In this document: positions 7,710 to 56,260 of the stretch, piece by piece
Layout: every line of letters starts with the position of its first letter
Position numbering within the stretch: position 1 is the first letter of the stretch
NCBI GenBank assembly: GCA_947501845.1
Contig: CANMXP010000014.1
Location: 62,001-126,000, forward strand
Reading direction: 5' to 3'
Length of the DNA: 64,000 bases
Source of the DNA: an uncultured Flavobacteriaceae bacterium
GTDB lineage: Bacteria > Bacteroidota > Bacteroidia > Flavobacteriales > Flavobacteriaceae
Notes under the pieces: generated by a model
Database searches by the model: none
Seen by the model: the letters and a program-made list of their open reading frames with translations, nothing else
What the model was told of the DNA's origin: nothing
Made by a program: the position numbers and the translations under genes

Positions 7710-9341
<1,632 letters not shown>

Positions 9342-9720: not shown

Positions 9721-9773
9721 AATGTTTAAGAGTTTATGCGTGTATCGTAAAGATATAAAATTATATAAAACGG

Positions 9774-10628
9774 TTAAAATAAACCGACAACTCCAATTTT
9801 ATTTCCAGTAAAATGGAACTTCCAGGAAATACGATTCTTTTGCTTTAAAGAGTTTTTATAGGCGTTTGTGTTGAACAAAAATTTATCAACAGAATCTACA
9901 ACAACGATGCTTATAGCGGTTCCCAATGCAATATCGGTAAGCCAGTGAGCACCTGAAAACAATCTAGATATAGGTGCGACAGAACCTAACGTATATACAC
10001 CAACTTTAGACCATATATTGCCAAATTGTTTAGCAATGGCATGAGACATGGTCATGGATAAAATAGTATGCCCAGATGGGAATGAATGAAATTGAGGCTC
10101 GTTAGACCAAAATCTAAATTCTGTACTCTTATAGCCATTTTTAGGACGAACTCTACCAAAGGTAGTTTTGCTTAAACTTTGTATTAGTCCTGTTGTAAAT
10201 GAAGACGAAATAATTAGGACGCTTGTTTTTCTAATCGTTTCATTTTTAGTGAATAACCCAAAACAATATAATCCAGCATTTGTTATAAAATAGACTTGTG
10301 GGCTTCCAAACCGAGTACCTGCTTCTTGAAATATTTTTGGGACATTCGGTTCTTGACGAATGAAGAAATGGCTACTTTCATCATCTATAGTAGAAAGCGC
10401 TAAGGTTCCTAAGCCTATAGTACCTAAAGTTACAAAATCTTTCTTTTTCCAATGAAAAGGTCTGGTTAAAGAATGTTTAATGCCTAAAAAAGCCTGTTTC
10501 GCATCATAACCAGCTAATTGCACAATAGAAGAACTGTCTTTAGTTTTTTTTAAAAGCGTTTCTTGTGCGTTTAATTTAAAAAAAACAAGGCACATAATTA
10601 TTAAAATGAAAGCTCTTAGCAACACCAT
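9774..10628 (-). CDS. PAP2-family membrane phosphatase
   Basis: This is a phosphatidic acid phosphatase type 2 protein, probably acting on lipid or isoprenoid phosphates at the membrane. An N-terminal signal (about 20 residues ending near LNAQ) is followed by several hydrophobic segments. All three catalytic motifs are present in order: KTTFGRVRP (KxxxxxxRP), FPSGH, and SRLFSGAHWLTDI (SRxxxxxHxxxD). The 284-residue length is normal for Bacteroidota. Its start lies one base from the pheT stop, so it is probably the second gene of a pheT operon. The C-terminus after residue 235 is a short basic tail. Substrate is undetermined; undecaprenyl or lipid A phosphates are possible. Confidence 0.9.
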   Translation of the reverse strand: MVLLRAFILIIMCLVFFKLNAQETLLKKTKDSSSIVQLAGYDAKQAFLGIKHSLTRPFHWKKKDFVTLGTIGLGTLALSTIDDESSHFFIRQEPNVPKIFQEAGTRFGSPQVYFITNAGLYCFGLFTKNETIRKTSVLIISSSFTTGLIQSLSKTTFGRVRPKNGYKSTEFRFWSNEPQFHSFPSGHTILSMTMSHAIAKQFGNIWSKVGVYTLGSVAPISRLFSGAHWLTDIALGTAISIVVVDSVDKFLFNTNAYKNSLKQKNRISWKFHFTGNKIGVVGLF

Positions 10629-10629
10629 A

Positions 10630-42491: not shown

Positions 42492-43187
42492 ATGAATAAA
42501 ATAACGATAGCCATAGATGGATTTTCTTCAACAGGGAAAAGTACTGTGGCCAAACAACTAGCCAAATATTTAGGTTACATTTATGTTGATACTGGGGCTA
42601 TGTACAGAGCAGTTACACTATATGCTATGGAAAAGGGACTCATTAGCAATGATGATTTTAATAAAGAGGCATTGGTTTATCAATTACCAAATATTGGAAT
42701 AAGCTTTAAGTTTAATGACATACTTGGTTTTGCAGAAGTATATTTAAATGGAGTTAATGTAGAAAAAGAAATTAGAACTTTAAAAGTGTCTGGTTTTGTT
42801 AGCCAGGTGGCCGCCGTATCTCAAGTGCGGCATAAATTGGTGGAGCAGCAACAAAAAATGGGTAAAGATAAAGGTGTAGTGATGGATGGAAGAGATATTG
42901 GTACTGTTGTTTTTCCTGATGCTGAACTAAAATTGTTTATGACGGCTTCTGCTGAAAAAAGAGCCATAAGACGTTATGAAGAACTTATAGGCCGTGGCGA
43001 TAAAGTTATTTATGAGGATGTTCTACATAATGTTCAAGAACGAGATCATATTGATACGACCCGTAAAGATTCCCCTTTAGAAAGAGCTGAAGATGCTATA
43101 GAAATTGATAACTCAAGCCTTAGTTTGGAAGAACAGTTTGATAAAATTTTGCAATTAGCAAAAATGACTATTGAAGATATAGAATAA
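42492..43187 (+). CDS. cmk: Cytidylate kinase
   Basis: CMP/dCMP kinase. The P-loop GFSSTGKST is at residues 9-17, YVDTGAMYRA at about 31-40 is the nucleoside-binding signature, and DGRDIGTVVFPDA (about 136-148) and the LID arginines near RRYEEL are present. The 231-residue length is typical. The gene lies upstream of rpsA as in many bacteria, but with a minus-strand LysM gene between them. A TATTTTTG box at 42470-42477 precedes the ATG by 14 bases without a clear -33 element. The transcript ends in a hairpin that embeds a palindromic repeat. Confidence 0.96.
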   Translation: MNKITIAIDGFSSTGKSTVAKQLAKYLGYIYVDTGAMYRAVTLYAMEKGLISNDDFNKEALVYQLPNIGISFKFNDILGFAEVYLNGVNVEKEIRTLKVSGFVSQVAAVSQVRHKLVEQQQKMGKDKGVVMDGRDIGTVVFPDAELKLFMTASAEKRAIRRYEELIGRGDKVIYEDVLHNVQERDHIDTTRKDSPLERAEDAIEIDNSSLSLEEQFDKILQLAKMTIEDIE

Positions 43188-43236
43188 AAAACGGCTTGGT
43201 CACTGAGCGTAGTCGAAGTGCAGCCGTTTTTTATTA
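43186..43236. terminator. Bidirectional terminator carrying a dispersed palindrome
   Basis: AAAAAACGGCT (43186-43196) pairs with AGCCGTTTTTT (43222-43232). The loop holds CACTGAGCGTAGTCGAAGTG (43201-43220), a widespread palindrome in Bacteroidota intergenic DNA. It separates the convergent cmk and LysM genes and can terminate in both directions. Confidence 0.85.
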
Positions 43237-43250
43237 AATCAATTCCTAAA

Positions 43251-43625
43251 TTACAGATTAGGAATAATTAATTCTTGGTCTGGATGAATTAAATCAGGGT
43301 TCTTTAAAATATCAGAATTAGCTTTAAAAATATCTTGATATTTTGATGCATTACCATAATATTGTATAGCTATTTTTCCTAAAGTTTCCCCACTTTTAAC
43401 AGTGTGTCTGTGAAAAACACTTTCATCTGCAACTTTGATATCGGCCATAATATCTGTTGGGCTTTCACCACCAATTTCTTTTATTTTATCCCAAATTAGA
43501 TTTTTTTCATAAGGTGTATTTGCAGTCCCCCAAACTTTTAAAACGCCGTTTTCTTCTTGTACATCGCCGTTTTGAATGTTTAAAGATTCCCCTAGATCTA
43601 ATACTGCTTGGTATTTTGCTTTCAT
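43251..43625 (-). CDS. BON-LysM protein (YgaU/Kbp-like)
   Basis: A 124-residue cytoplasmic protein. Residues about 10-65 resemble a BON-like domain (VLKVWGTANTPYEKNLIW). Residues 74-122 form a LysM domain (HTVKSGETLGKIAIQYYGNASKYQDIF ending in PDQELIIP; quoted in parts: HTVKSGETLGKIA, IQYYGNA, DQELIIP). There is no signal peptide, which agrees with E. coli YgaU/Kbp, a cytoplasmic potassium-binding protein with the same BON-LysM order. A potassium-sensing role is inferred by analogy only. It converges with cmk. Confidence 0.85.
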   Translation of the reverse strand: MKAKYQAVLDLGESLNIQNGDVQEENGVLKVWGTANTPYEKNLIWDKIKEIGGESPTDIMADIKVADESVFHRHTVKSGETLGKIAIQYYGNASKYQDIFKANSDILKNPDLIHPDQELIIPNL

Positions 43626-43799
43626 AGTTTTATAAGTGTTAAATTATTCTGTTATTTCATTTTACAATATAATAAATTTCTTATTATAAAATTCATTAAA
43701 GGTTAAGCTTTTGTTTCTATTTTTTGGACACAAAATAGATGTAAAAGTCACACTATAAAAGTTTGTTTTGTCAAATTAGGCTAATTTCCTGAAAATATG

Positions 43800-43929
43800 T
43801 ATTTTTGCACTCCTTTTAGCGAATTAATGGAAAGATAAAAGGATGAAACAGAAATTATTTATAACACTTCTGTGTGTTAATCGCGTAAGGCTTTCCTAAA
43901 ACATACAGAATACAAATTTTAATCAGCAC
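43800..43929 (+). promoter_or_regulatory. rpsA -7 box and long leader
   Basis: TATTTTTG at 43800-43807 fits TAnnTTTG, though no TTG lies at the usual spacing. It would give a leader of about 115 bases before the rpsA start at 43930. In other bacteria S1 represses its own mRNA through the leader; whether that holds here is not visible. No known riboswitch was recognised. Confidence 0.4.
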
Positions 43930-45762
43930 ATGGCTGAAAAAGCAAAACAAGCTGAAGTTGAAGCAACAGATGCTCCAAAAGCAGAAGCTCCAGTAGTATC
44001 TGAAGCTCAGGCAAATCCAGAAAAATTCTTAAAAGAGTTCAATTGGCACAATTACCAAGAAGGTATTGATGAGGTTGATGACAAGCAACTTAAAGAATTT
44101 GAAAAATTAGTAGCAGAAAATTTCGTTGACACCCTTAATGATGAGGTTGTTGAAGGTACTGTGGTTCACATTACTGACAGAGATGCAATTATTGACATCA
44201 ATGCAAAGTCTGAAGGTGTTATTTCTTTAAACGAATTTCGTTACAACCCTAACTTAGCAGTGGGTGATAAAGTAGAAGTATTAATCGATGTTCGTGAAGA
44301 TGCAACAGGTCAATTAGTACTATCTCACAGAAAAGCACGTGTTATCAAAGCTTGGGATCGTGTTAATGCGGCCCATGATAGTGGTGAAATCGTTAATGGT
44401 TTTGTTAAATGCAGAACTAAAGGTGGTATGATTGTAGATGTTTTTGGAATTGAAGCATTCTTACCTGGTTCTCAAATTGATGTAAAACCAATTAGAGATT
44501 ACGATCAGTACGTAAATAAAACTATGGAATTTAAAGTTGTTAAAATCAACCACGAATTCAAAAACGTAGTAGTATCTCATAAAGCTTTAATTGAAGCTGA
44601 TATTGAAATACAGAAAAAAGAAATTATTGGTCAATTAGAAAAAGGTCAAGTACTAGAAGGTGTTGTTAAAAACATTACTTCTTATGGTGTATTTATTGAT
44701 CTTGGTGGCGTTGATGGTTTAGTTCACATCACAGATTTATCTTGGTCTAGAATTAATCATCCAAACGAAATTGTAGAATTAGACCAAAAACTTAATGTTG
44801 TAATCCTCGATTTTGATGAGAACAAATCAAGAATCCAATTAGGATTAAAACAATTAAGCAAACACCCATGGGAAGCTCTTGCAGAAGAGGTGAAAGTAGG
44901 TGATAAAGTAAAAGGTAAAGTAGTTGTTATTGCAGATTACGGTGCGTTTATTGAAGTAGCCGATGGTGTTGAAGGATTGATTCACGTATCTGAAATGTCA
45001 TGGTCTACACATTTACGTTCAGCTCAAGATTTCGTTTCTGTAGGAGATGAGGTTGAAGCTGTTATCTTAACTCTTGATAGAGAAGATCGTAAAATGTCTC
45101 TTGGTATTAAGCAATTAACTCCAGATCCATGGACAGATATTACAGGTAAATACCCATTAGCTTCTAAACATACAGGAGTTGTACGTAACTTTACAAACTT
45201 TGGTGTTTTTGTTGAGCTAGAAGAAGGTATTGATGGATTGATTTACATCTCAGATTTATCTTGGACTAAGAAAATCAAGCACCCATCTGAATTCTGTGCA
45301 GTAGGTGATAAGTTAGATGTTATTGTATTAGAATTGGATGTTGAAGGACGCAAATTAAGTTTAGGTCATAAACAAACCACTGAAAACCCTTGGGATAAGT
45401 ATGAAACAGAATTCGCTTTAGAAACTGTTCATAATGCATCAATTGCTGAAATAGTTGATAAAGGCGCTACAGTAGAGTTTAATGAGGATATCGTTGCTTT
45501 TGTACCTTCTCGTCATCTTGAAAAAGAAGATGGAAGCAAACTTAAGAAAGGTGAAGCTGCAGAATTCAAAATCATTGAATTTAATAAAGAGTTTAAACGT
45601 GTTGTAGCATCTCATACAGCTGTATTCAAAGCTGAAGAAGTTGCAAATGTTAAAGCAGCAGTTAAGAAAGCGGCTAGTGCAGCGGCAGAAGCAAAACCAA
45701 CTTTAGGTGATGCTAATGATGCTTTACAAGCTCTTAAAGATAAAATGGACGGGAAAGCATAA
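43930..45762 (+). CDS. rpsA: 30S ribosomal protein S1
   Basis: S1 binds mRNA and helps start translation on the 30S subunit, although Bacteroidota rely less on Shine-Dalgarno pairing. The 610 residues hold six S1 repeats, seen from their starts: VVEGTVVHITD, GEIVNGFVKCR, GQVLEGVVKNITSYGVFIDL, GDKVKGKVVVIADYGAF, HTGVVRNFTNFGVFVEL and VHNASIAEIVDKGATVEF. An acidic-Ala N-terminus (KAQQAEVEATDAPKAE-like) and an Ala/Lys-rich tail flank them. The first two repeats are less canonical, as usual in S1 where they bind the ribosome. The gene ends in a strong terminator. Confidence 0.97.
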   Translation: MAEKAKQAEVEATDAPKAEAPVVSEAQANPEKFLKEFNWHNYQEGIDEVDDKQLKEFEKLVAENFVDTLNDEVVEGTVVHITDRDAIIDINAKSEGVISLNEFRYNPNLAVGDKVEVLIDVREDATGQLVLSHRKARVIKAWDRVNAAHDSGEIVNGFVKCRTKGGMIVDVFGIEAFLPGSQIDVKPIRDYDQYVNKTMEFKVVKINHEFKNVVVSHKALIEADIEIQKKEIIGQLEKGQVLEGVVKNITSYGVFIDLGGVDGLVHITDLSWSRINHPNEIVELDQKLNVVILDFDENKSRIQLGLKQLSKHPWEALAEEVKVGDKVKGKVVVIADYGAFIEVADGVEGLIHVSEMSWSTHLRSAQDFVSVGDEVEAVILTLDREDRKMSLGIKQLTPDPWTDITGKYPLASKHTGVVRNFTNFGVFVELEEGIDGLIYISDLSWTKKIKHPSEFCAVGDKLDVIVLELDVEGRKLSLGHKQTTENPWDKYETEFALETVHNASIAEIVDKGATVEFNEDIVAFVPSRHLEKEDGSKLKKGEAAEFKIIEFNKEFKRVVASHTAVFKAEEVANVKAAVKKAASAAAEAKPTLGDANDALQALKDKMDGKA

Positions 45763-45785
45763 TATTCCTAATCTTTTATAAAATG

Positions 45786-45816
45786 AAAGCCTTCAAGAAA
45801 TTGAAGGCTTTTTTGT
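45786..45816. terminator. rpsA terminator
   Basis: AAAGCCTTCAA (45786-45796), loop GAAA, TTGAAGGCTTT (45801-45811), then T residues. It may also serve the convergent gene. Confidence 0.9.
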
Positions 45817-45863
45817 TTAATGATTGTCTCCTTTAAATAAAATCAATTAATTAAAGTAAAAAC

Positions 45864-46463
45864 TTAATATATAGATTGTATTCTTTTCGATATAGAATTG
45901 AGCTCAAAGACCTTAAGCAAGCCTACGAGTAAAAATAAAACCATGGATATGTACGTATTTAAAAATGCAGATGATAACCCAATAACATAAATAGATACAC
46001 AGATATAATCCATAGTGTGCCTATCTAGGTGTGTGGCTATTGGAGAAGTTTTTTCATGAATTTTGATAATAGAATTTCTTAAGAGTAGAAATGATAACTG
46101 ACTCATAAGAAGTACAAAACCATATAAAACAACGGGGACAACATCTGTATGGTGATCACCTTTTCCAATCCAACCTGTTGTGAATGGGATTACAGATAAC
46201 CAAAATAATAGGTATAAATTAGCCCATAAGATTTTTCCATTTATTTTTTCTGCCATTTTAAAGAGTTGATGATGAGTGACCCAATAAACACTAACATATA
46301 AGAAGCTTACTAGATAACTAATAAATATTGGCACGATTTCAAAAAAAGCTTTTAAAGTATATTCGCTTGGTGCTTCTAATTCTAAAACCATAATAGTAAT
46401 AATAATAGCAATTACACCATCACTAAAGGCCTCTAATCTTTCAGAGGTCATTCCATTTTTCAT
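45864..46463 (-). CDS. TMEM175-family (DUF1211) channel-like protein
   Basis: A 199-residue membrane protein with about six hydrophobic segments. RLEAFSDGVIAI at residues 9-20 is the RxxxFSDG signature of the TMEM175 family, whose bacterial members are potassium channels that work as tetramers of one six-helix domain. VTHHQLF and a short acidic-His loop (KGDHHTDV) follow. The length matches prokaryotic members. It lies downstream of a six-gene minus-strand cluster but 174 bases away, so linkage to that unit is doubtful. Confidence 0.85.
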   Translation of the reverse strand: MKNGMTSERLEAFSDGVIAIIITIMVLELEAPSEYTLKAFFEIVPIFISYLVSFLYVSVYWVTHHQLFKMAEKINGKILWANLYLLFWLSVIPFTTGWIGKGDHHTDVVPVVLYGFVLLMSQLSFLLLRNSIIKIHEKTSPIATHLDRHTMDYICVSIYVIGLSSAFLNTYISMVLFLLVGLLKVFELNSISKRIQSIY

Positions 46464-46637
46464 TGTAAATTCAAATTAATAATTAGAGATATTGGTTCTT
46501 TATAAATTTGCATTTATAACCTTGTATTAAAGAGGAAAGTGAATTTCACTTTCCCCTGTTTTTTTACATTGATATTAGTGCTGCGTAGAAATTTATAAAG
46601 ATCCGTTCCATTTTTTTAGGTGGAAATATTTCTCTTT

Positions 46638-47039
46638 TTATTTATAATAATTGCGATCGTCTGGTGCTTCATTTAAAGTGAATGTATGTTGATATTCAGG
46701 ATCATACACATTCAATATTGTATACGTTCCTGATGTTTTCCAAGATTCGCCATCCCAGGTACCATCACTATTTAGTAGTTTTTGAATATGCTGTGACTGA
46801 ATTAGAACACGCCCCCAAAATAGCCATTTACCATTTATGTTATGTACAAAATAAACCCTAACAGGGTCCAATTGGAAAATTCTGGCACTAGGCTTATCTT
46901 TAAATTCAAATACCATACCTTCTACATCTTTAAGTGTGATTGGTGTTTTCTGGTGTTTTTCCAGATCGAAAATATGAACAGGGAACCCCTGTTCTGTTGT
47001 TAATTGTAATGTGTCATTGATTTCTACGAAACTTCCCAT
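46638..47039 (-). CDS. Hypothetical small protein, last gene of the PLD/GMC/ferritin-like cluster
   Basis: A 133-residue soluble protein, not recognised. It is beta-rich by pattern: VEINDTLQLTTEQGFP, VEGMVFEFKDKPSARIFQL, RVYFVHNINGKWLFWGRVL, and a C-terminal TYTILNVYDPEYQHTFTL. The alternation and a central 'VYFVHN..GKW.FWGR' suggest a compact barrel. There is no signal peptide and no catalytic motif. It starts 11 bases after the SRPBCC gene's stop. A binding or accessory role in the cluster's reaction is a guess from linkage. Confidence 0.72.
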   Translation of the reverse strand: MGSFVEINDTLQLTTEQGFPVHIFDLEKHQKTPITLKDVEGMVFEFKDKPSARIFQLDPVRVYFVHNINGKWLFWGRVLIQSQHIQKLLNSDGTWDGESWKTSGTYTILNVYDPEYQHTFTLNEAPDDRNYYK

Positions 47040-47050
47040 TTTTATATTTT

Positions 47051-47503
47051 TTAGTTATTAATTAATTTTCCTCCAAACATATTTACCAAATTTTCAAATC
47101 CATTCTTATAAAATTGTGTGACCCCATCTTCTGAAGAATAAAATTCAGAAGACCACTGCACTAAACAGCGCTTATTGAGTTCTGTTTCTACGACTTGGAT
47201 TTGGGCATGGTATCTTTGTGTTGTTTCTCCCCATTCTCCTTTATGCCATTTATATTTATAACGCATATTTTCATTATCCATAAAAACTAATTCTTCCCAT
47301 GTAGGCGTTTGGCCAGGAAAGGTTAATTTTCTACGAATATCTCTTTCTTCTCCCTGTCCTTCAGGAACTTCAGAAAATGTAATATCTGAATGCCATTGAT
47401 TGATATTATAAAAGCCTCCAACAAGATGCCATACTTTGGCTGCCGAAGCATTTAATTCGCATACCACAACGACCTGCCAATTTTTAGAATCTTTTGTGTT
47501 CAT
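47051..47503 (-). CDS. SRPBCC-superfamily (START-like) protein
   Basis: A 150-residue protein of the polyketide cyclase/dehydrase-like SRPBCC group, whose helix-grip fold holds a hydrophobic ligand. The start MNTKDSKNW (47503) is preferred over an upstream start that would run back through the preceding gene's end. Family text: VVVVCELNASAAKVWHLVGGFYNINQWH (in parts: NASAAKVWHLVGGF, NINQWH), then RKLTFPG and LVQWSSEF near the C-terminus. Members bind or reshape aromatic or lipid-like small molecules. It begins 13 bases after the ferritin-like gene, consistent with a role in that pathway as a ligand-binding or cyclase step. Substrate unknown. Confidence 0.8.
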   Translation of the reverse strand: MNTKDSKNWQVVVVCELNASAAKVWHLVGGFYNINQWHSDITFSEVPEGQGEERDIRRKLTFPGQTPTWEELVFMDNENMRYKYKWHKGEWGETTQRYHAQIQVVETELNKRCLVQWSSEFYSSEDGVTQFYKNGFENLVNMFGGKLINN

Positions 47504-47516
47504 TTTAATATTTAAA

Positions 47517-48653
47517 TTATAGCATTCTAAAACAAGGTCCATAATGTAATCCGTCCTTATCTGGAATTGGTATCTGCATAAGAGGTAGGGCAAATTGTTC
47601 TAATTTAAACATAACCTCAATGGCATTTACCAAGGCTGCTTGTCCTCGTCCGTTTATGGCCCAGGCATCTTCTAAGAACTTTACTAAATCTGTATAAACT
47701 TCATCAAAACTGTTTATCAAGTGCCAAACTTCTGGTGACACATCATCCTTTTTATACCCTCCCTCAGGTATTCTTGCAATATTATGTGTCTCTGGTCTTG
47801 GAACGGGGTCTTTGAAGTAATATTTATCCCCCTCTTGAACAATTTTCTTTTGGTAATACACTTCCCAAAAGCGATAGAAATGGGCTAAGTTATCCATGCC
47901 TGTGCTAGCAGGCGTTACATTTTCAGAGCCTTCTCCTTGTTCTTTAATCATATCTATAGCTTTGGAAACGCTTTCAGCATCTGCCATAACCCACCAAGAT
48001 AAAGGACCTGCTAATTGGCGTTCGACATCCATTTTTGGCTGTAACTCCTGAAATAATTCATTAATACGATCGTACAGCTCACCTATGGTCGTATTGTGTT
48101 CATGACTTTGAATATGCTTGGTGTTGCCAATTTTCCCTTCTTGGTTGCATAGACCTCCTATACCCACTAACTCTTTTGTTTCGTAATCATATATTTCGGC
48201 AATTTCTTCTGGTAACTCGATTTCCATGAAATTTCTAAGCGAGCAATCATTTAACCCTTCTAGATATAGAAAAAGCTCTGGATGTACACCGCCAGGCAGA
48301 CCTGAAGGGAAGTTTAGTCTGTTCTCCGTGTTATATATCCTTGGTTCACCACCAATTCCAACAATCATATTACAGACCATTGCCATATGAAGCATTTCTT
48401 CCTGAAAAATATTACGAATCGATTTTGCGACCTCAGACTCATTGTCTTTAATAGTCCACATGGCTTGTAAATAAATAGGAATGGTTGCAAATTCTAATAC
48501 AACAGCACTGTTTAATAGTTCTTTTAAAACATGTAATTTGTCTTCTTCAACATTGTCTACAGATTTTGAGTGTTGAATTAATTCTTTTACATTGTTTAAT
48601 TTAGTTGCTTTCTCTTGAAAGGCATTCTTGAATTGTATTTGTTTTGTTAGCAT
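47517..48653 (-). CDS. VioB-type ferritin-like protein
   Basis: A 378-residue protein of the ferritin-like family that includes the iminophenyl-pyruvate dimer synthase domain of VioB and the RebD/StaD group. The start MLTKQIQF (48653) lies inside the end of the GMC gene, a 53-base overlap. Di-iron-type ligands are visible: Glu54 in VLEFATIPIYLQAMW (quoted in part, LEFATIPIY) and ExxH at Glu86-His89 in FQEEMLHMAM. Other conserved text is FPSGLPGGVHPEL and DNLAHFYRFWEVYYQ. It is much shorter than VioB (about 1000 residues) and lacks its other domain. Its immediate partner is an FAD oxidoreductase, recalling VioA/VioB coupling. Substrate unknown. Confidence 0.82.
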   Translation of the reverse strand: MLTKQIQFKNAFQEKATKLNNVKELIQHSKSVDNVEEDKLHVLKELLNSAVVLEFATIPIYLQAMWTIKDNESEVAKSIRNIFQEEMLHMAMVCNMIVGIGGEPRIYNTENRLNFPSGLPGGVHPELFLYLEGLNDCSLRNFMEIELPEEIAEIYDYETKELVGIGGLCNQEGKIGNTKHIQSHEHNTTIGELYDRINELFQELQPKMDVERQLAGPLSWWVMADAESVSKAIDMIKEQGEGSENVTPASTGMDNLAHFYRFWEVYYQKKIVQEGDKYYFKDPVPRPETHNIARIPEGGYKKDDVSPEVWHLINSFDEVYTDLVKFLEDAWAINGRGQAALVNAIEVMFKLEQFALPLMQIPIPDKDGLHYGPCFRML

Positions 48654-50274
48654 TATTTGTATTGGAATTAGTTTGGTTTGTTTGTTTTTCAATAAGGTGA
48701 TTTACTAATCTAAAGGCCATTGCTGTAAGTGTAAGAGTTGGGTTTACGGCACTTCCAGTAGGAAAAGCAGCATTGGAGCATACATATAGATTATCGGTAT
48801 TATGTACCTTCATAAATTTGTCGGTAACACTGTTTTCGGGGCTTGTTCCCATACGTGCAGTACCAGTTGTATGATGCCCTCCTGGTTTGTCCACCCTAGA
48901 TGATGTCACCTCTAGTCCCATTTTTTCAATGATCTGTTCCAGTAATTTCAAACGATCATTGGCATTTTTCATTTCTTCTTCTGTTCTACTGAAATGTACG
49001 GTTGTTTGTGGCAGGCCAAAGCGATCTTTTCCAGGCTTTGCTTCTAATCTATTGCGATGTTTGCCCTTTTCTTCTAAAAAAGCTTGAATATTAATAGTCA
49101 TTTCTCCATAAACTATTTCATCAATTTCTTCTCTGGTTTTCCCATCAATCATTAATTGAGCAATATCAACATTTGGAGTCGTACGATTTTTAAACATAAA
49201 AATCTTTCCTTTCTTTTGATGCTCTTTAGTATTGTAACTATGCGACATTAGAGTTGGGAAATCATATTCTTGAAACCAACCGTTGGGGTTGGATGACGCT
49301 TTACCAACCACATTTAGCATAGAATGTGATACAACAAAACGCCCTACTAAATCATGGTCATTACCAATGCCATCTTTCCAGAATTCGTTTTTAGAAGCTC
49401 TTAATAATTTAGGAACATTATAGGCTCCAGATGCTAAAATTATGGTACTGCCCTTAACGGTATATTCATTACCGCTTAAGTTATCTGTGTATGTTACAGA
49501 TTCTATTTTAGATTTACTGGAAACGTTTACTTGGTGTACTGGGGAGTTTACTCGAACTTCAAAATTGATGAATCGCGTATCGTTTTTTAAATCATCTAAT
49601 ACGTATTGTGCATTAAACCGTCCACCAATTGGACAATATTTACAAGTTCCAGTAGTCATACATTTTCGATAACGAGCAATTGGCATTTTGCCAGATTGTA
49701 TCTTGCTTTTTTTACCAGGGTTTATATCGCCATCTTGGTATACAACATCTAACTGTTCCCATGCCTTGATCATTTCACCGTCGGCTGCAGTCCATTCGAA
49801 AGGCGGTACGGGATAAGGTTTTGATCTTGGAACCCAATTAGCATTATCATCACCACATACAGATAAAAATGCTTCGGCATCATTATAATAGGTTTCCAAA
49901 TCTTCATAATTAATAGGCCAATCTGCGCCTTCACCTGTATTAGTAAATAGATTAAAATCTTCTGGCCTAAATCGTAAACACCAAGCTCCCCAGTGCATGG
50001 TAGAGCCTCCATATGCTTTTACACGAACCCCATCAGTTTGATAATCGATATTACCTGTGGAGTCGGCTTCAAATTTTTGGTCGTAAGTAAATGTATATGG
50101 CCTTTCTCCTCGGGTAATATAATCCCACCAAAAACGTCTGTCTTTGGCTATAATTTCGGGACCAGCCTCCAAAATTAATATGGAAGTATCATGCTTGTGT
50201 TCTAACAAACCTTTGGCTGTAGTTGCTGCCGCAACGCCACCACCAACAATTATATAGTCAAATTGGTTTTTCAT
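48601..50274 (-). CDS. GMC-type FAD-dependent oxidoreductase
   Basis: A 557-residue flavoenzyme. The FAD Rossmann motif IIVGGGVAAATTA is at 8-20 and Glu36 in LEAG binds the ribose. KAYGGSTMHWGAW near residue 87 is the flavin-contact segment. HHTTGTARMG and NPTLTLTAMAFRL near the C-terminus supply the GMC active-site His and Asn. CMTTGTCKYCPIGG near residue 200 is a cysteine cluster like those in the large subunits of membrane sugar dehydrogenases. There is no signal peptide. The start overlaps the previous gene by four bases (ATGA) and its end overlaps the next start by 53 bases. The C-terminal tail is Asn/Thr-rich (TNQTNSNTNNANKT). Confidence 0.9.
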   Translation of the reverse strand: MKNQFDYIIVGGGVAAATTAKGLLEHKHDTSILILEAGPEIIAKDRRFWWDYITRGERPYTFTYDQKFEADSTGNIDYQTDGVRVKAYGGSTMHWGAWCLRFRPEDFNLFTNTGEGADWPINYEDLETYYNDAEAFLSVCGDDNANWVPRSKPYPVPPFEWTAADGEMIKAWEQLDVVYQDGDINPGKKSKIQSGKMPIARYRKCMTTGTCKYCPIGGRFNAQYVLDDLKNDTRFINFEVRVNSPVHQVNVSSKSKIESVTYTDNLSGNEYTVKGSTIILASGAYNVPKLLRASKNEFWKDGIGNDHDLVGRFVVSHSMLNVVGKASSNPNGWFQEYDFPTLMSHSYNTKEHQKKGKIFMFKNRTTPNVDIAQLMIDGKTREEIDEIVYGEMTINIQAFLEEKGKHRNRLEAKPGKDRFGLPQTTVHFSRTEEEMKNANDRLKLLEQIIEKMGLEVTSSRVDKPGGHHTTGTARMGTSPENSVTDKFMKVHNTDNLYVCSNAAFPTGSAVNPTLTLTAMAFRLVNHLIEKQTNQTNSNTNNANKTNTIQECLSRESN

Positions 50275-50828
50275 TCCTGATTATTTTTTAGATTATTAGT
50301 ATCTGGATCATAGGCACGTACTCTGGGGGTACGATTGTATCGTGTGCCTCCTAAGAATCCATGATAATTTCTCGCTTGTTCTCCACCATACTTAGTTCCC
50401 CAACTCTTAAACCCTCCCGCGGTAATTTGCATTCGGATAAACTCGTTAACTACATATATTTTACAATGTGCTAATCGGGTAGTTGGTGGAGCACTGTTAT
50501 CTAAGCCGCTTTCAAAGAATAATTTTTTATAGGCACCTCCTGTTCCATACATGGCTTTTAGTTCGTTAATTACATAAATAGCATTTACATATTCTCCTGC
50601 ATAATTAGGTGCATTTTCGGTTTTTGCCTTTAGCATTTCATACCATGAGCTTCTTTGGTTATTGGAATTGTAAATGGTATTAGACCAATTGGTTCCAATT
50701 GCTTCAAAGATTTCCCATAAGGCTTCTTTATTTTGATGTGTAAGACTTTGTCCCTCTGCAAAAATTAAACCTGCTGGAAGCGTTTCATTGCAGACAGGAC
50801 CTCCAATAGAAGTAAGTTCTTTATTCAT
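50271..50828 (-). CDS. Hypothetical small protein preceding the GMC oxidoreductase
   Basis: A 185-residue protein without a signal peptide, not recognised with certainty. Text such as LPAGLIFAEGQSLT, NAIYVINELKAMYG, CKIYVVNEFIRMQITAGGFK and NYHGFLGGTRYN suggests a helical fold. A small protein directly ahead of a GMC-type large subunit recalls the small subunits of sugar dehydrogenases (gluconate, sorbitol or fructose type), but those carry a Tat signal, absent here. The four-base overlap with the GMC gene implies equal production and a stable complex. The small-subunit role is inferred. Confidence 0.7.
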   Translation of the reverse strand: MNKELTSIGGPVCNETLPAGLIFAEGQSLTHQNKEALWEIFEAIGTNWSNTIYNSNNQRSSWYEMLKAKTENAPNYAGEYVNAIYVINELKAMYGTGGAYKKLFFESGLDNSAPPTTRLAHCKIYVVNEFIRMQITAGGFKSWGTKYGGEQARNYHGFLGGTRYNRTPRVRAYDPDTNNLKNNQE

Positions 50829-50879
50829 AAAATGTGTGTGTTTAAAAGATTAATTACGTATATATTTCGAATCTTTTTA

Positions 50880-52487
50880 TTAACTGAAGAGTTCACGTTC
50901 CATGTAATGTTGTGTCCCTTTTTTGAAATAAATATTGGTCCAAGAATTGTCTGTAGCCAAATAATCACTAAAATAGACCTCGTCAAGTCCATTGTTTGCT
51001 AATTGATCACGGAATTCAAAGTGATTAAACAAGCGTGTGAACTCTGTAAGATACACGTCTACTACATTAGTGTTTCCTCGAATAATGATCATATTCTCAT
51101 CGTTGTTTTGTGTAGAAGCTTTCGAAAAGTTAGCTGATCCAGTAATAAGGATGGGGTCTTCAGTTAGTGGGTCTACAAAAAGATATTTGGTATGTAAATA
51201 TTTTACATGATCGTTTAAGCCCGTAAGGTGTTCGGCTTCCCAATTTTTTAGGCCTTCTTCTTCTATTTCTTGCTCATTAAGTACAGCGCCTAAAGCAATT
51301 CTATTGTTGGGGGTGTCTTTAAAGTCATCAAATGTATTTCCTTCATGCTCTAATAAAATGTATCGAAATGAGTCGTCCTCTTTACTCATGATATCTGCAA
51401 AATCTTGGTTCACTCCAAATGCTGCAGTAAATCCAATAGATTGTTTTGCTTCTTCAATTTGTTTTCCATACCAATCTAAAACACTTAAATCTGGTCTGGG
51501 ACTAAAAATAGGGGTGATTCCTTTTGGTACTCCTTTTTTAGGGGTTGGGGTATGATCTTCATTTAAAGGGCGAATTTCTTTCATTTGAGGATCTTTAGAG
51601 AGTCGTGTCCAATACTCAAAATATGCTTCAGCAATGGTTTTGTCTCTTACTATATGGCCAACATTTGATTGTCCAAAAATGCCTCCTTTTGTGAAATTGG
51701 TAGAACCCATCCATACTTCTATGGGTTTTCCTTTATGTAGTAGTACAATATATTTATTGTGTTTTATAGACGAATTTGCTGTTCTGGGAATCAATAGCTT
51801 TTCAACACCAGGGACTTTAGCTACAGCTTTATCTGTATTTTCCCAAGGACCAGTTTTTGATCTGTCGTATATGATTTTTACATCTGCGCCTCTTTTTGAA
51901 GCATCGTATAAAGCTTGAATAACTGGTACATAATCAAATTCGTAAGCAGCTACGCGTAAGGCATAGTCTTTTCCTTTGGCCTCACCGATAAAAGCTAACA
52001 TGGCTTCTTCTAAACCTCTGGACAACCATTTGTAAGCTTCATTATCTGGAACTTTTTCAGGGTTTTTATTATCAAACTTTCTAGCATAGGCTTGACCAAC
52101 GGTACCACGGTTAAAAAAGACACCGTGTTTGCCCGAATTTGGGTTTTCGGTAGTAATCTCTACTTTAATTTCACTACCATTTTTTCTGTTTTCAGGAGTG
52201 CCATAAACTGGTGTCGCAGAATACTCATAATTGGTATTGGGCTTTGCTGTATAATCCCCCCAAAGAAAAGCTTGAATTAAGCCTTCATCATTTTTAGTGC
52301 CATTTTCTTTAAACTCTTTAAATCCTTTAAGTGTTGTTGATTTTCCAGTGGCAATTTCTTTTCGTTTAAGTAAAAAACCTAATAGTTCTTTTCTTGCGGT
52401 TTCGTTTACATCTAAACAAAGTAATACAACATGGGTTCCTGCTATAACATGCAATGAAACACCATTTGCTTGATTTCTTAATCTCAT
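50880..52487 (-). CDS. Phospholipase D-like protein, first gene of the cluster
   Basis: A 535-residue protein with two PLD-type halves behind an N-terminal beta-rich domain of about 110 residues. The second HKD motif is complete: His432-x-Lys434-x4-Asp439 with GSAN at 450-453. In the first, His243 and Lys245 are present with GSTN at 261-264, but the Asp position is a leucine (Leu250). No signal peptide is present. PLD-fold enzymes act on phosphodiesters of lipids or nucleic acids; which one is unclear. The gene lies 51 bases ahead of the next and starts a six-gene unit. No clear TAnnTTTG box lies before it. Confidence 0.82.
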   Translation of the reverse strand: MRLRNQANGVSLHVIAGTHVVLLCLDVNETARKELLGFLLKRKEIATGKSTTLKGFKEFKENGTKNDEGLIQAFLWGDYTAKPNTNYEYSATPVYGTPENRKNGSEIKVEITTENPNSGKHGVFFNRGTVGQAYARKFDNKNPEKVPDNEAYKWLSRGLEEAMLAFIGEAKGKDYALRVAAYEFDYVPVIQALYDASKRGADVKIIYDRSKTGPWENTDKAVAKVPGVEKLLIPRTANSSIKHNKYIVLLHKGKPIEVWMGSTNFTKGGIFGQSNVGHIVRDKTIAEAYFEYWTRLSKDPQMKEIRPLNEDHTPTPKKGVPKGITPIFSPRPDLSVLDWYGKQIEEAKQSIGFTAAFGVNQDFADIMSKEDDSFRYILLEHEGNTFDDFKDTPNNRIALGAVLNEQEIEEEGLKNWEAEHLTGLNDHVKYLHTKYLFVDPLTEDPILITGSANFSKASTQNNDENMIIIRGNTNVVDVYLTEFTRLFNHFEFRDQLANNGLDEVYFSDYLATDNSWTNIYFKKGTQHYMERELFS

Positions 52488-52906
52488 ATATTCAATTTAT
52501 TGGTTACATTAAATAGTCTTATTAAATATGTAAAACAATTAATACATATTTAGGTTAAAAGACAGAAATTAATTTGTCTTATGAGAGAAATTTCGCTACT
52601 AATCTAGTTTTAATTTTTTATAAAACCAAGAAAAATCATACACTCTTTTTTAATTGATAATTTTTTATACTTTCATTTAGGGCTAAAATTTTAAAGCATA
52701 AAAGGTGTGAAGTATTGTTAATGTATGAGTTATGTATGCTATGGACTAAAATTAAAAATTGAGGTTATTAAAATGTTTTTATATTGTAAAAAGGTCTTAT
52801 CAAAGATTTGAGATTTTCTAGTAATTTAATAGTCTCTTTATTGACATCATCTCATTGGTGGTGTTATAAGTGTTAACTTTATGTTTTTACTTCTAAAATT
52901 TTGCAT
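52488..52906. other. Intergenic region between divergent transcription units
   Basis: About 420 AT-rich bases. No ORF or RNA gene was recognised. The only clear signal is the pyrR promoter at its right end; the promoter of the PLD-led cluster could not be located. Confidence 0.5.
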
Positions 52907-52933
52907 TATCTTTGTATTCCAAATACGTTTGGA
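52907..52933 (+). promoter_or_regulatory. pyrR -7 box and palindrome at the transcription start
   Basis: TATCTTTG at 52907-52914 is a good -7 element, without a matching TTG upstream. It is followed by the inverted repeat TCCAAA-TACG-TTTGGA (52918-52933), which would sit right at the start of the transcript. The repeat could be an operator or a leader hairpin ahead of the ATG at 52942. Confidence 0.5.
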
Positions 52934-52941
52934 TAGTATAT

Positions 52942-53481
52942 ATGAGTCAAAAAGTTTTACTTAACGCAAAAGAGGTAAACATCATTCTTCATCGATTGGC
53001 TTGTCAACTTATTGAAAATCACGATGATTTTTCTAACACTGTTTTAATTGGCTTACAACCCCGAGGTGTCTTTTTAGCCGATAGATTAGCAAAAATCTTA
53101 AAGGAAGATTACAAAGTAAAAAACATTCAATTAGGACATCTAGATATTACGTTTTATAGAGACGATTTTCGTAGAGGAGAAAAAACGCTTGAAGCAAATA
53201 CCACAAAACTTAATTTTTTAGTTGAGGATAAAAATATTGTCTTTATAGATGATGTTTTATATACAGGACGTAGTATTAGAGCGGCTTTAACCGCTATTCA
53301 ATCTTTTGGAAGACCGAATGAAATAGAATTATTAACATTGATAGATAGGCGTTTTAGTAGGCATTTGCCCATACAGCCAAACTATAGGGGTAGGCAAGTA
53401 GATGTTATAAATAACGAAAAAGTAAAAGTAAATTGGGAAGAACATGATAATGAAGATTCGGTTTACTTAATTGAAAAATAA
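52942..53481 (+). CDS. pyrR: PyrR-type uracil phosphoribosyltransferase/regulator
   Basis: PyrR proteins are phosphoribosyltransferase-fold proteins that salvage uracil and, in Firmicutes, attenuate pyrimidine operons by binding mRNA. The 179-residue length is standard. The PRPP loop VFIDDVLYTGRSIRAAL (in parts: FIDDVLYTGRS) is near residues 92-104, with GLQPRGVFLA near 40. The start is ATG 52942 (MSQKVLLNA) and not the upstream TTG that lies inside the promoter. It is followed 133 bases later by pyrB. No Firmicutes-type PyrR-binding loop or antiterminator was recognised in the leader. Confidence 0.93.
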   Translation: MSQKVLLNAKEVNIILHRLACQLIENHDDFSNTVLIGLQPRGVFLADRLAKILKEDYKVKNIQLGHLDITFYRDDFRRGEKTLEANTTKLNFLVEDKNIVFIDDVLYTGRSIRAALTAIQSFGRPNEIELLTLIDRRFSRHLPIQPNYRGRQVDVINNEKVKVNWEEHDNEDSVYLIEK

Positions 53482-53614
53482 TAATTTACTAGAAGTTAGG
53501 CATGGGATTGAAATGTTAGACCGAGTTTTTTTGGCTTCGATTAAAACAGGTATAAGTCAAGACCTAATTTAAAACAACAGGCAACTGAAAATTGCCACAG
53601 AATATTAAAAAAAC

Positions 53615-54544
53615 ATGAGCGAATTAAGTGTCAATCACTTATTAGGAATAAAATATCTTAAAAAACAAGATATCCAACTTATTTTTGAAACTGCCGATCA
53701 TTTTAAAGAAGTTATTAATAGGCCTATTAAAAAAGTTCCTTCGCTTAGAGATATTACCATTGCCAACCTTTTCTTTGAAAATTCAACGAGAACAAAATTA
53801 TCATTCGAATTAGCTGAAAAAAGGCTATCTGCAGATGTTATTAATTTTTCGTCAGGTCAGTCTTCGGTTAAAAAAGGGGAAACCTTAATAGATACGGTTA
53901 ATAATATTTTATCTATGAAAGTTGATATGGTTGTTATGAGACATCCAAACCCTGGGGCTGGAGTCTTTTTATCAAAGCATATCAATGCTAGTATTATAAA
54001 TGCGGGTGACGGAGCTCATGAGCATCCTACGCAAGCCCTTTTAGATTCGTATTCCATAAGAGAGAAATTAGGAGATGTAAAAGGAAAGAAAGTTGTTATA
54101 GTTGGAGATATTCTTCATAGTCGTGTAGCGCTTTCTAATATATTTGCACTACAACTTCAAGGTGCGCAAGTCATGGTTTGTGGGCCAAAAACATTATTGC
54201 CAAAGTATATTGATAAACTTGGAGTAAAAGTTGAAACAAATTTGCGTAAAGCATTAAATTGGTGTGATGTAGCTAATATGTTACGTGTTCAGAATGAACG
54301 TATGGATATTAGTTATTTTCCATCAACTAGAGAGTATACGCAGCAGTTTGGTGTTAATAAAGAATTGCTAGATTCATTAGATAAAGAAATAACGATCATG
54401 CACCCAGGTCCTATTAATAGGGGCGTGGAAATTACCAGTGATGTTGCCGATTCAAAACAATCAATTATTTTAGACCAGGTTCAAAACGGTGTCGCTATAA
54501 GAATGGCAGCTATATATTTATTAGCATCTAAAATAAAACAGTAG
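53615..54544 (+). CDS. pyrB: Aspartate carbamoyltransferase catalytic subunit
   Basis: PyrB condenses carbamoyl phosphate and aspartate, the committed step of pyrimidine synthesis. The 309 residues carry the carbamoyl-phosphate motif ENSTRTKLSFE (near 51), HPTQALLDSYSI (near 131), and HPGPINRGVEI near 262. Lengths and motifs are normal. No pyrI regulatory subunit follows; instead three bases later comes a small gene of unknown role. The pyrR-pyrB order suggests joint control by pyrimidine supply. Confidence 0.97.
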   Translation: MSELSVNHLLGIKYLKKQDIQLIFETADHFKEVINRPIKKVPSLRDITIANLFFENSTRTKLSFELAEKRLSADVINFSSGQSSVKKGETLIDTVNNILSMKVDMVVMRHPNPGAGVFLSKHINASIINAGDGAHEHPTQALLDSYSIREKLGDVKGKKVVIVGDILHSRVALSNIFALQLQGAQVMVCGPKTLLPKYIDKLGVKVETNLRKALNWCDVANMLRVQNERMDISYFPSTREYTQQFGVNKELLDSLDKEITIMHPGPINRGVEITSDVADSKQSIILDQVQNGVAIRMAAIYLLASKIKQ

Positions 54545-54547
54545 ATT

Positions 54548-54880
54548 ATGATTTTAGACCAAAACGGAAATACTTCTATAATCACACAAGAAAAGGCCAC
54601 GGTTATAGAATTAGTTAAAAAATTACAGGCTTTATATCCCAAATTTAAAAACAATAATATTATTGTGGTCTTAACAACTTTAGATAAGTTAAGTTTACAA
54701 GATATTGTTGAATTTCTTGAAGTTTCAAATAATCACCGTGCATCCAAACAATCTTTTGTAATCGTTTCAAATAATATTAATTTGAATGATATTCCAGACG
54801 AAATTATAGTTGTACCAACTGTTCAAGAAGCTTATGATCTTATTGAGATGGAAGAAATGGAGCGAGATTTAGGGCTATAA
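54548..54880 (+). CDS. Conserved hypothetical, STAS-like
   Basis: A 110-residue protein three bases downstream of pyrB. The pattern of a strand (NIIVVLTTLDKLSLQDIVEFL) then a helix, then SKQSFVIVSNNIN and IIVVPTVQEAYDLIEMEEM fits a STAS / anti-sigma-factor-antagonist-like alpha/beta fold, which ends in a 'vv.T..EA..li..E..er.l' segment. There is no phosphorylatable Ser evident. I know this family only as a neighbour of rnz in Flavobacteriaceae. Function is unknown. Confidence 0.75.
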   Translation: MILDQNGNTSIITQEKATVIELVKKLQALYPKFKNNNIIVVLTTLDKLSLQDIVEFLEVSNNHRASKQSFVIVSNNINLNDIPDEIIVVPTVQEAYDLIEMEEMERDLGL

Positions 54881-54882
54881 AT

Positions 54883-55353
54883 ATGAGTGAATTACATCTA
54901 GCACAGATAAATATAGCAAAAAGATTAGCTCCATTGGATGATCCCATCATGCGAGATTTTGTGAACAATTTAGATAGAATTAATGCTTTAGCAGATAAAA
55001 GTGAAGGCTTTGTATGGCGCTTAAAAGATGAAGATAAGGAGTTAGGGGCTCGAGTTTTCCAAGACGAAGCGTTACTCATTAATATGTCTGTATGGGAAAA
55101 TATGGAAACGTTATTTAATTACACATATAAATCGGGGCATATAGAAGTTTTTAAACGTAAAAAAGAGTGGTTTGGTAAAATGAAAATGATGCATATGGCA
55201 TTTTGGTATGTCCCTAAGGGGCATGAACCAACATTTTTAGAAGCCAAAAATAGACTGGATTATTTAAATAAACATGGAGAATCCCCATATGCTTTTAGTT
55301 TTAAAAGTAAATTTACAGTCTCAGATTCATTAAATTACAAACTTCTTTTGTAA
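54883..55353 (+). CDS. DUF3291 domain protein
   Basis: A 156-residue cytoplasmic protein of the DUF3291 family, an alpha/beta-barrel-like (dimeric ferredoxin-type) fold of unknown role. Signature text: LHLAQINIAKRLAPLDDP at the start, SEGFVWRL, LINMSVWENMETLF near residue 68, and MAFWYVPKGHEPTFLEAKNRL (in parts: AFWYVPKGHEPT). It lies two bases after the preceding gene and one base ahead of rnz, so it is translated from the same message. The conserved WYVP-G segment suggests a ligand site. Related folds bind haem or act as monooxygenases, but nothing here proves that. Confidence 0.82.
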   Translation: MSELHLAQINIAKRLAPLDDPIMRDFVNNLDRINALADKSEGFVWRLKDEDKELGARVFQDEALLINMSVWENMETLFNYTYKSGHIEVFKRKKEWFGKMKMMHMAFWYVPKGHEPTFLEAKNRLDYLNKHGESPYAFSFKSKFTVSDSLNYKLLL

Positions 55354-55354
55354 T

Positions 55355-56260
55355 ATGAAGCTAACAATTTTAGGCTGTTATAGTGCAACACCAAGGACAT
55401 TAAACAATACAACATCCCAAGTATTAGAGATTAATAATCATATGTTTTTGATTGATTGTGGGGAAGGGACTCAAGTACAACTTCGTAAGCATAAAATAAA
55501 GTTTAATCGTATTAAACATATATTTATATCGCATCTACACGGTGATCATTTTTTTGGATTGGTTGGTCTGATATCAACTTTTAGATTGCTTACCAGAGAA
55601 GCAGATTTACACATTTACGGGCCAAAAGGTATTAAAGAAGTGGTTACATTACAAATGAAGTTAGCCGATTCTTGGACGAATTACAATCTGATCTTTCACG
55701 AATTAACTTCAAACGAATCAGAGCTAATTTTTGAAGATGATAAGGTTGAAGTATACACAGTGCCATTAAATCACAGAGTTTATACTAATGGATTTCTATT
55801 TAAGGGAAAGGAAGGCGATAGAAAGTTGAATATTGATGCCGTTGAAGCTGCAAATATCAATGTTGCTTATTACCGAAAACTAACACAAGGTTTTGACGTT
55901 ATTAATGAAGATGGTGAAACTATAAAAAACGAATCGGTAACTAAAGCTGGTTTAAAACCAAAAAGTTATGCGTTTTGTAGCGATACGATGTATAAAGAAG
56001 ACATTGTACCTATTATAAATAATGTGGATGTGCTATATCATGAATCTACTTTTCTAGAAAAACATGCACATTTAGGCCCAAAAACTAAGCATTCAACAGC
56101 AAAAGAAGCAGCTACGATAGCTAAGTTGGCTAAGGCAGGCACCTTGTTGCTAGGGCATTATTCAACGCGTTACAACGGCTTGAATGCTTTTAAAGAAGAA
56201 GCTCAAGAGATTTTTGATAATGTAGAGTTATGCGAAGATGGCAAAACTTTTGAGTTTTAA
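55355..56260 (+). CDS. rnz: Ribonuclease Z
   Basis: RNase Z trims the 3' ends of tRNA precursors. The 301 residues carry the beta-lactamase-fold zinc motif HLHGDH at 60-65, a second ligand set in FCSDT and YHESTF, and GHYSTRY near the C-terminus. NHRVYTNGF marks the short-form RNase Z. Length is normal. It ends a run with pyrB and two small genes with gaps of one to three bases. Its stop codon overlaps that of the convergent gene by two bases. Confidence 0.95.
   Translation: MKLTILGCYSATPRTLNNTTSQVLEINNHMFLIDCGEGTQVQLRKHKIKFNRIKHIFISHLHGDHFFGLVGLISTFRLLTREADLHIYGPKGIKEVVTLQMKLADSWTNYNLIFHELTSNESELIFEDDKVEVYTVPLNHRVYTNGFLFKGKEGDRKLNIDAVEAANINVAYYRKLTQGFDVINEDGETIKNESVTKAGLKPKSYAFCSDTMYKEDIVPIINNVDVLYHESTFLEKHAHLGPKTKHSTAKEAATIAKLAKAGTLLLGHYSTRYNGLNAFKEEAQEIFDNVELCEDGKTFEF

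Follow-up and report, generated by a model that had tools for sequence, protein, structure and literature searches.

Six genes on the minus strand, at positions 46638-52487, form the unit described here. The window, which is the whole stretch of DNA that was analysed, comprises 64,000 nucleotides (nt) from an uncultured Flavobacteriaceae bacterium (GenBank assembly GCA_947501845.1, contig CANMXP010000014.1, positions 62,001 to 126,000 of the forward strand). At the core of the unit is a triad: a GMC-family flavoprotein, its putative small subunit encoded directly upstream, and a ferritin-like protein of the VioB type. A PLD-like phosphodiesterase gene precedes the triad, and genes for an SRPBCC protein and a 133-residue orphan follow it. 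The open reading frames (ORFs) lie where an earlier account made from the sequence alone (the sequence-only reading) had placed them, and its description of tightly packed genes with gaps of at most 51 bases and two overlaps is accurate. The gaps measure 51, 13 and 11 nt, and the overlaps 4 nt (small subunit/GMC) and 53 nt (GMC/ferritin-like). The same six genes recur in the same order at loci L036 and L037 from other phyla; the unit is therefore real and not a product of chance.

Gene content and borders of the unit

The genes, in the order of transcription, are as follows.

50880-52487, minus strand: PLD-like phosphodiesterase, 535 amino acids (aa); PLDc_2, E 6e-23
50271-50828, minus strand: putative small subunit of a GMC dehydrogenase, without a leader, 185 aa; homology to the G266 protein; precedes the GMC gene in 17 of 17 loci
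48601-50274, minus strand: predicted GMC dehydrogenase dependent on flavin adenine dinucleotide (FAD), 557 aa; Pfam GMC_oxred_N and GMC_oxred_C; 6a2u at E 1e-42
47517-48653 from the ATG, minus strand: VioB-type ferritin-like protein, 378 aa; PF12902, E 2.5e-45
47051-47503 from the ATG, minus strand: SRPBCC ligand-binding protein, 150 aa; Polyketide_cyc2, E 4.6e-15
46638-47039, minus strand: uncharacterised 133-aa protein; no family match; present in 15 of 17 loci
45864-46463, minus strand: TMEM175-like potassium-channel protein, downstream of the six-gene unit; PF06736, E 2.9e-30

The ferritin-like and SRPBCC genes are listed as ORFs with TTG starts at 48692 and 47593; the ATG starts at 48653 and 47503 are used here. 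Among the seven window proteins scanned, PLDc_2, GMC_oxred_C, GMC_oxred_N, Ferritin-like PF12902 and Polyketide_cyc2 score above the Pfam cut-off. The 185-aa and 133-aa proteins have no Pfam family above cut-off, no acceptable NCBIfam or PADLOC family and no PHROG at E 0.01. The unit had been described as free of signal peptides; a simple hydrophobicity check finds no clear N-terminal signal, although the residues around 14-25 of the PLD are moderately hydrophobic.

The neighbors of the block in Flavivirga are, on one side, a gene with S1 domains, read as rpsA, and, on the other, a gene for a phosphoribosyltransferase, read as pyrR. The ORFs flanking the block at 43000-56000 otherwise read as housekeeping genes (by eye; two were checked by domain scan). 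The TMEM175-like gene lies downstream in all 10 Flavobacteriaceae loci, one copy (L032) being broken over two frames, and is not seen in the other seven, of which L038 and L108 end too early to tell. It is probably a lineage-specific member of the block. The unit had been called closed: it is indeed conserved as one unit, but it may reach past 46638 because of this constant neighbor.

The flavoprotein, its small subunit and the ferritin-like protein

The nearest solved GMC relatives of the flavoprotein are FAD-dependent glucose dehydrogenase (FAD-GDH; 6a2u, E 1e-42), to whose catalytic subunit residues 5-529 align, and the large subunit of fructose dehydrogenase (FDH; 7w2j, E 1e-39); pyranose oxidases trail, with a best E value of 3.5e-13. 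Both dehydrogenases have small and cytochrome subunits. In enzymes of this type, a three-cysteine motif holds a 3Fe-4S cluster that feeds electrons to the cytochrome. The corresponding cysteines of the window protein (C205, C211 and C214) are invariant in 17 of 17 operon GMC proteins, as are H468 and N511, which we take from the GMC motif to be the active-site pair. The window spacing is Cys-X5-Cys-X2-Cys, that of 6a2u Cys-X5-Cys-X3-Cys. No cytochrome family was found by Pfam among the seven window proteins scanned. The sequence-only reading had treated this protein as a flavin oxidase; from these alignments, a dehydrogenase that has a small subunit and clustered cysteines looks more likely than a simple oxidase. 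The alcohol or sugar-like substrate proposed at the same time remains plausible, given that the closest solved relatives of the GMC protein are FAD-glucose and fructose dehydrogenases.

The 185-aa protein, which the sequence-only reading left without a label, is predicted to serve a cytoplasmic GMC dehydrogenase as its small subunit. A relative in genome G266 shares 32% identity with it over 113 residues (E 1e-6), and an hhalign comparison with that relative gives a probability of 98.6 and E 1e-15 over 130 columns. The G266 relative (locus L030) has at its N terminus a leader of the twin-arginine type (the RR motif was judged by eye; PF10518 at E 0.0099, below cut-off), and its gene overlaps the start of a GMC gene whose product is 34% identical to the window GMC. 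In genome G087, the protein in the small-subunit position matches the D-sorbitol dehydrogenase family PF12318 (FAD-SLDH) at E 1.3e-4, with 22.7 bits against a cut-off of 24.2. The gene stands directly upstream of GMC in 17 of 17 collected loci, and the window protein has no hydrophobic leader in the hydrophobicity check. Pairwise distances of the small subunit and GMC are correlated (r 0.80, 0 of 2000 permutations as high, n=8 with one Flavobacteriaceae member kept), and other protein pairs correlate less strongly on the same set. This identity would make the flavoenzyme resemble FAD-glucose and fructose dehydrogenases and not a VioA-like oxidase. None of the 13 members of the 185-aa family matches the Pfam small-subunit families; an AlphaFold model of the window protein (predicted local distance difference test, pLDDT, 70.8) has no usable PDB match, and profiles of the 185-aa and 133-aa families find nothing in the PDB below E 0.3. 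A search of 392 Planctomycetota genomes with a small subunit matched one, the source of the query. A phage tail collar assignment was rejected, having reached E 0.029, below cut-off, in one of the 13 members.

VioB ferritin-like domains are known mainly from bisindole pigment pathways. The 378-aa product of the fourth gene appears by homology to be only the ferritin-like half of VioB, not fused to the N-half: it scores 10 bits (E 0.13) against the VioB equivalog model TIGR04492 (NCBIfam), whose cut-off is 1250. A 590-aa protein from locus L022, which we take to be a VioB N-half, was used as a single query against 14 genomes and matched only its own source (G013); it has no match in the host (G000) or in 12 other triad genomes, although a diverged half could escape. 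The echo of the VioA-VioB pair that had been noticed in the unit is not supported by this comparison, and violacein-like dimerisation was dropped on the same two results. The probable metal ligands of the ferritin-like protein, E54, E86, H89, E146, E241 and H258, do not vary in any of the 14 relatives aligned. These residues, whose loss would have counted against the pathway idea of the sequence-only reading, are intact as judged from an alignment of sequences and not of structures.

Relatives of the ferritin-like protein occur in other arrangements. In L014 (Aureibacter), L016 (Mycetohabitans) and L022, a homologous protein of 587-675 aa is encoded apart from the ferritin-like half; those of L014 and L016 are presumably VioB N-halves as well. 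Rhizobial plasmids encode proteins of about 910 aa (L010, 5273-8002; L011, 5219-7966) in which a long N-terminal part is followed by the ferritin-like domain, and these genes point away from a gene run that includes radical SAM together with FAD monooxygenase or tryptophan halogenase. A link to ebo genes and scytonemin was considered and dropped; among the contexts read, ebo genes adjoin only the relatives of the VioB-N-half type, L014 and L016.

Such biosynthetic surroundings of other family members, ebo genes included, together with the SRPBCC/Polyketide_cyc2 protein of the unit itself, would suit the tailoring of a specialised metabolite. Here the GMC enzyme would convert an alcohol to an aldehyde or ketone, the di-iron protein would oxygenate, couple or deformylate, the SRPBCC protein would carry a hydrophobic intermediate and the PLD would make or trim a lipid. 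This explanation is unlikely, if worth keeping in view, as no core synthase or carrier protein is present among the seven window proteins scanned, the flanks at 43000-56000 read as housekeeping by eye, and the hydrolase beside the core varies by host, which is unusual for one fixed product.

Recurrence, mobility and the accessory genes

The ferritin-like protein is found in eight of 99 genomes: the host, itself a marine Flavivirga, five of 11 other Flavivirga and two that are more distant. A scan with one genome per species covered the best 80 of 537 loci, so that the count of triads is a lower bound. At least 17 distinct small subunit-GMC-ferritin loci are known from five phyla: the window, L031 (L017 contig), L032 (L018 contig), L019, L020, L021, L029, L033-L041 and L108. 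The co-occurrence on which the idea of a pathway had been staked is thereby borne out. Ten of the 17 are from Flavobacteriaceae; the remainder belong to Pseudomonadota (L036, L038 and L040), Planctomycetota (L037 and L108), Acidobacteriota (L039) and Actinomycetota (L041). All seven except L040 come from metagenome-assembled genomes, and contamination is therefore possible for single cases. In a tree of 96 ferritin-like proteins (midpoint root; long-branch and composition warnings), the 17 triad members fall on one side of a branch (98/92), and the grouping takes one change, a value that 0 of 500 shuffles reached.

The distribution is patchy. In a sample of 299 Flavobacteriaceae genomes (apparently the same for each search), the small subunit, the 133-aa protein and the full-length PLD reach operon-grade scores in the same four genomes. 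Weaker extra matches occur in G266 (small subunit), G308 (133-aa; a 53-residue match too weak to use) and G205 (PLD), and the PLD search also recovers 31% PLD paralogues in G000 and G002. At the pyrR-rpsA site of 12 Flavivirga genomes, the PLD stands beside pyrR in five, pyrR and rpsA are no more than about 1.2 kb apart in five, and two cannot be read within 1.5 kb. One of these genomes, G004, has a pyrR-rpsA gap of only about 160 nt and carries the operon with the TMEM175-like gene about 3 Mb away in contig coordinates. The block is mobile: it is absent from its site in some congeners and elsewhere in one.

The PLD carries the half-motifs H243/K245 and H432/K434/D439. Histidine and lysine of both halves are invariant in 12 of 12 orthologues, and the first HKD half is without its distal Asp. 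Its N-terminal ~150 aa have no Pfam match; in NCBIfam and PADLOC, the protein gives sub-threshold matches to NucT and DrmC nucleases, and those in PADLOC are partial and of the DrmC/ZacB type, with a best E value of 2.7e-11. Sixteen of the 17 triads have a gene of the nuclease or phosphodiesterase type next to them, which in 12 is this PLD. The others have a PF04185 phosphoesterase upstream, clipped by the contig end (L038), an S1/P1 nuclease ~15 nt upstream (L039), a PF04185 gene and a DNase II inside the gene run (L041), and an adjoining, divergent Trypsin_2/Endonuclease_NS gene (L108). On homology, the PLD gene is best described as one occupant of a slot that other nucleases or phosphoesterases fill elsewhere. 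Eight genomes contain 0-5 matches to PF04185, 0-3 to S1/P1 and 1-11 to PLDc_2. In G351 and G354, the sole PF04185 gene found is the one at the triad, and one of two S1/P1 matches in G352 is at its triad. Given these base rates, which cover the three families only and yield no formal probability, phosphodiesterase-type neighbors are unlikely to have arisen by chance.

The PLD family is also found apart from these genes. No triad is seen at five plasmid loci that bear it (L121, L122, L123, L126 and L128), so the family is not bound to the triad; in L121 and L128, from Undibacterium and Methylobacterium plasmids, it is paired with a DUF2278 gene. At a second host locus (L156, G000:C1:326001-344000, at 8071-12731), genes for a cupin, an SRPBCC protein and a DyP peroxidase adjoin that of a related PLD (29%). 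Two tail-collar-type proteins and one resembling Het-C are encoded nearby, and the SRPBCC protein of this locus is 48% identical to that of the window. On a Hymenobacter plasmid (L120) and in G205 (L157), the PLD adjoins genes for a DyP-type peroxidase and a pyruvate-formate-lyase-like protein, possibly another undescribed redox-hydrolase cluster.

The SRPBCC gene is present in 13 of 17 loci; it is not found in L031, L032 and L040, and the sequence of L108 stops within the ferritin-like gene. In L040 the 133-aa gene is likewise not found, and L108 is cut too soon to show it. Window and other-phyla copies of the 133-aa protein share 51-71% identity in the five such loci that hold it, and in each it is more conserved than GMC, the next best member. 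Its model (pLDDT 83.4) has a best Foldseek match at E 0.048. In the VIA comparison, the ytmB structure 2nwa scores Z 5.8 and the EVE structure 2eve Z 4.6 (root-mean-square deviation 4.4, 102 aligned), phage and Hcp tube proteins appear at Z 3.3-3.6, and all values are below 8. Many of the weak matches (SRA, EVE, YTH, ASCH and Lon-N) are, we assume, PUA-like folds. From the model, the protein may possibly be a PUA-like barrel, which hints, without amounting to a result, that it binds nucleobases or nucleic acids. A viral structure library returns nothing for it at E <= 0.001 (best, a viral DUF72 protein at 9.7e-3), and no match was found on plasmids. In five loci (L019, L020, L021, L029 and L034), an extra protein of 188-190 aa, probably with a signal peptide, is encoded between the genes for the ferritin-like and SRPBCC proteins; the L020 copy has an Lcl_C domain, and the protein is missing from the window, L031, L032, L033 and L035.

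Triads with more distant ferritin-like proteins, from a separate part of the tree, are found in G087, in S. meliloti beside inositol-type genes, and in one Streptomyces and one Streptosporangium, both with a DyP peroxidase nearby. Further triads, outside the tree, lie on Methylorubrum and Rhizobium plasmids. The Methylorubrum copy has a PLD downstream (23% to the window PLD), SIR2 upstream and an adjoining VapC gene. In Rhizobium sp. NZLR1 (L125, 1-12384), the gene upstream of the triad encodes a CXXCH protein that probably has a signal peptide. TIR proteins lie to one side of this set, MBL and S8 peptidase to the other. Rhizobium johnstonii (L127, 7554-12086) holds an apparently decayed set of the same type, with CXXCH and ferritin-like genes split between frames. 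The association in separate ferritin-like lineages supports a coupling of the GMC and ferritin-like proteins.

Defence-type neighbors of the Methylorubrum and Rhizobium copies (SIR2, VapC, TIR, MBL and S8 peptidase), the swappable nuclease slot, the weak PUA-like fold and the patchy, mobile distribution all recall a defence or antagonism cassette. A redox- or base-sensing core of the 133-aa, GMC and ferritin-like proteins would then control or accompany an exchangeable nuclease or phospholipase that hits invading DNA or the cell. This is improbable, if still worth weighing. Beyond its partial match for the PLD, PADLOC has none for the 185-aa, GMC, SRPBCC and 133-aa proteins and a weak, chance-level one for the ferritin-like protein; the unit has no NTPase, the fold matches stay below Z 8, the Flavivirga block stands between the genes read as rpsA and pyrR, and the contexts of L040 and S. 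meliloti look metabolic. Triads among metabolic genes, as in those two, suit a catabolic role.

Proposed function and comparison with known systems

The unit may encode a cytoplasmic multi-subunit alcohol oxidase together with enzymes that feed it, a reading given a probability of roughly 0.4. The PLD-like phosphodiesterase, or another nuclease or phosphoesterase in other hosts, would split a phosphodiester and so free an alcohol. Bound by the small subunit, the GMC dehydrogenase would oxidise this alcohol on FAD, and electrons would leave through an iron-sulfur cluster at Cys-X5-Cys-X2-Cys for the ferritin-like di-iron protein. The latter would reduce or activate O2 in place of the cytochrome of related sugar dehydrogenases, while the SRPBCC and 133-aa proteins may bind ligand or product. 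Leading candidates for the substrate are a nucleoside, a phospholipid head group and a cyclitol. Nucleosides are hinted at by the nuclease-type neighbors and by the fold of the 133-aa protein; cyclitols, phospholipid head groups or other alcohols are just as compatible with the contexts of S. meliloti and L040 and with the PF04185 and PLD families. Koga et al. (1997) reportedly described, from Flavobacterium meningosepticum, a nucleoside oxidase with several subunits, FAD and iron or haem, which uses O2 to oxidise the 5′-alcohol of nucleosides; it would fit the proposal but serves as a lead only. A bolder form of the proposal is rather doubtful: a new type of soluble oxidase running from GMC through iron-sulfur to a VioB-type di-iron O2 site, moving between phyla in a cassette whose nuclease can be exchanged, acting on alcohols derived from nucleic acids and possibly serving as a conflict system.

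Several observations weigh against the alcohol-oxidase proposal. The cysteine spacing is one residue off that of FAD-GDH (X2, not X3), and distances of the GMC and ferritin-like proteins correlate with only r 0.46 (154 of 2000 permutations; one Flavobacteriaceae member kept). The Limibaculum triad L040 has no phosphodiesterase among the five neighbors scanned, which are a thiamine pyrophosphate enzyme, an AMP-binding ligase, a GntR/FCD regulator, a DUF3237 protein and a cyclase-domain protein, and it is without an SRPBCC or 133-aa homologue. The slot genes were grouped as one functional class only after their identities had been seen. The sister triad of S. meliloti, among inositol-type genes, favors a cyclitol or sugar over a nucleoside, and the CXXCH protein of L125 means that a cytochrome may accept the electrons there. 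DyP peroxidases beside related genes suggest chemistry with hydrogen peroxide (H2O2) and not the reduction of O2 at the ferritin-like protein.

The same peroxidases, inserted with cupin genes in the Tenacibaculum copies and present beside the Streptomyces and Streptosporangium relatives, could also point, with the ligand residues of the ferritin-like protein, to an oxidative-stress unit. Its ferritin-like protein would store iron or destroy the peroxide that GMC activity produces, with stress repair as the task of the other genes. That is very improbable, for it leaves the small subunit, the cysteine cluster, the SRPBCC protein and the recurring phosphodiesterase unexplained.

No description of a GMC and VioB-ferritin combination was found in the open-licence literature, subscription papers lying outside the search. 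Papers on Caulobacter and Bradyrhizobium name a GMC gene, and the Caulobacter one also names a ferritin-like gene, with distant locus numbers. In separate lineages, VioB-type ferritin-like domains are tied to GMC dehydrogenases that have a small subunit, which suggests that a di-iron protein can take the place of a cytochrome partner. A functional unit that has no name in Pfam, NCBIfam, PADLOC or PHROGs is marked out by its exchangeable phosphodiesterase slot and by the 133-aa orphan, which is strongly conserved. As short, expressible gene sets, some from isolates, these operons offer material for testing the replacement of a cytochrome by a di-iron protein.

The unit shares parts with several known or related systems. 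With the bisindole-forming enzymes VioB, RebD and StaD, it has in common the ferritin-like PF12902 domain and its ligand residues, but it is without an amino-acid oxidase, and one query found no N-half relative in the genome. The split VioB-like and ebo clusters (L014 and L016) encode a stand-alone ferritin-like protein of the same family; their partner, however, is the 587-675 aa protein related to the L022 590-aa gene and not a GMC enzyme, and they occupy a different part of the ferritin-like tree. In the PLD-DyP-glycyl-radical clusters (L120 and L157) and the second host locus (L156), a related PLD stands next to a redox enzyme as in the window, but the partner is a DyP or pyruvate-formate-lyase-like enzyme in place of GMC and ferritin-like proteins. 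FAD-GDH (6a2u) and FDH (7w2j) share with the unit a GMC catalytic subunit, a group of three cysteines and, immediately upstream, a gene for a small subunit. In contrast to these dehydrogenases, the window small subunit has no twin-arginine leader, the cysteine spacing of the GMC protein is one residue shorter, and the unit is without a cytochrome c gene; a ferritin-like gene follows the GMC gene instead.

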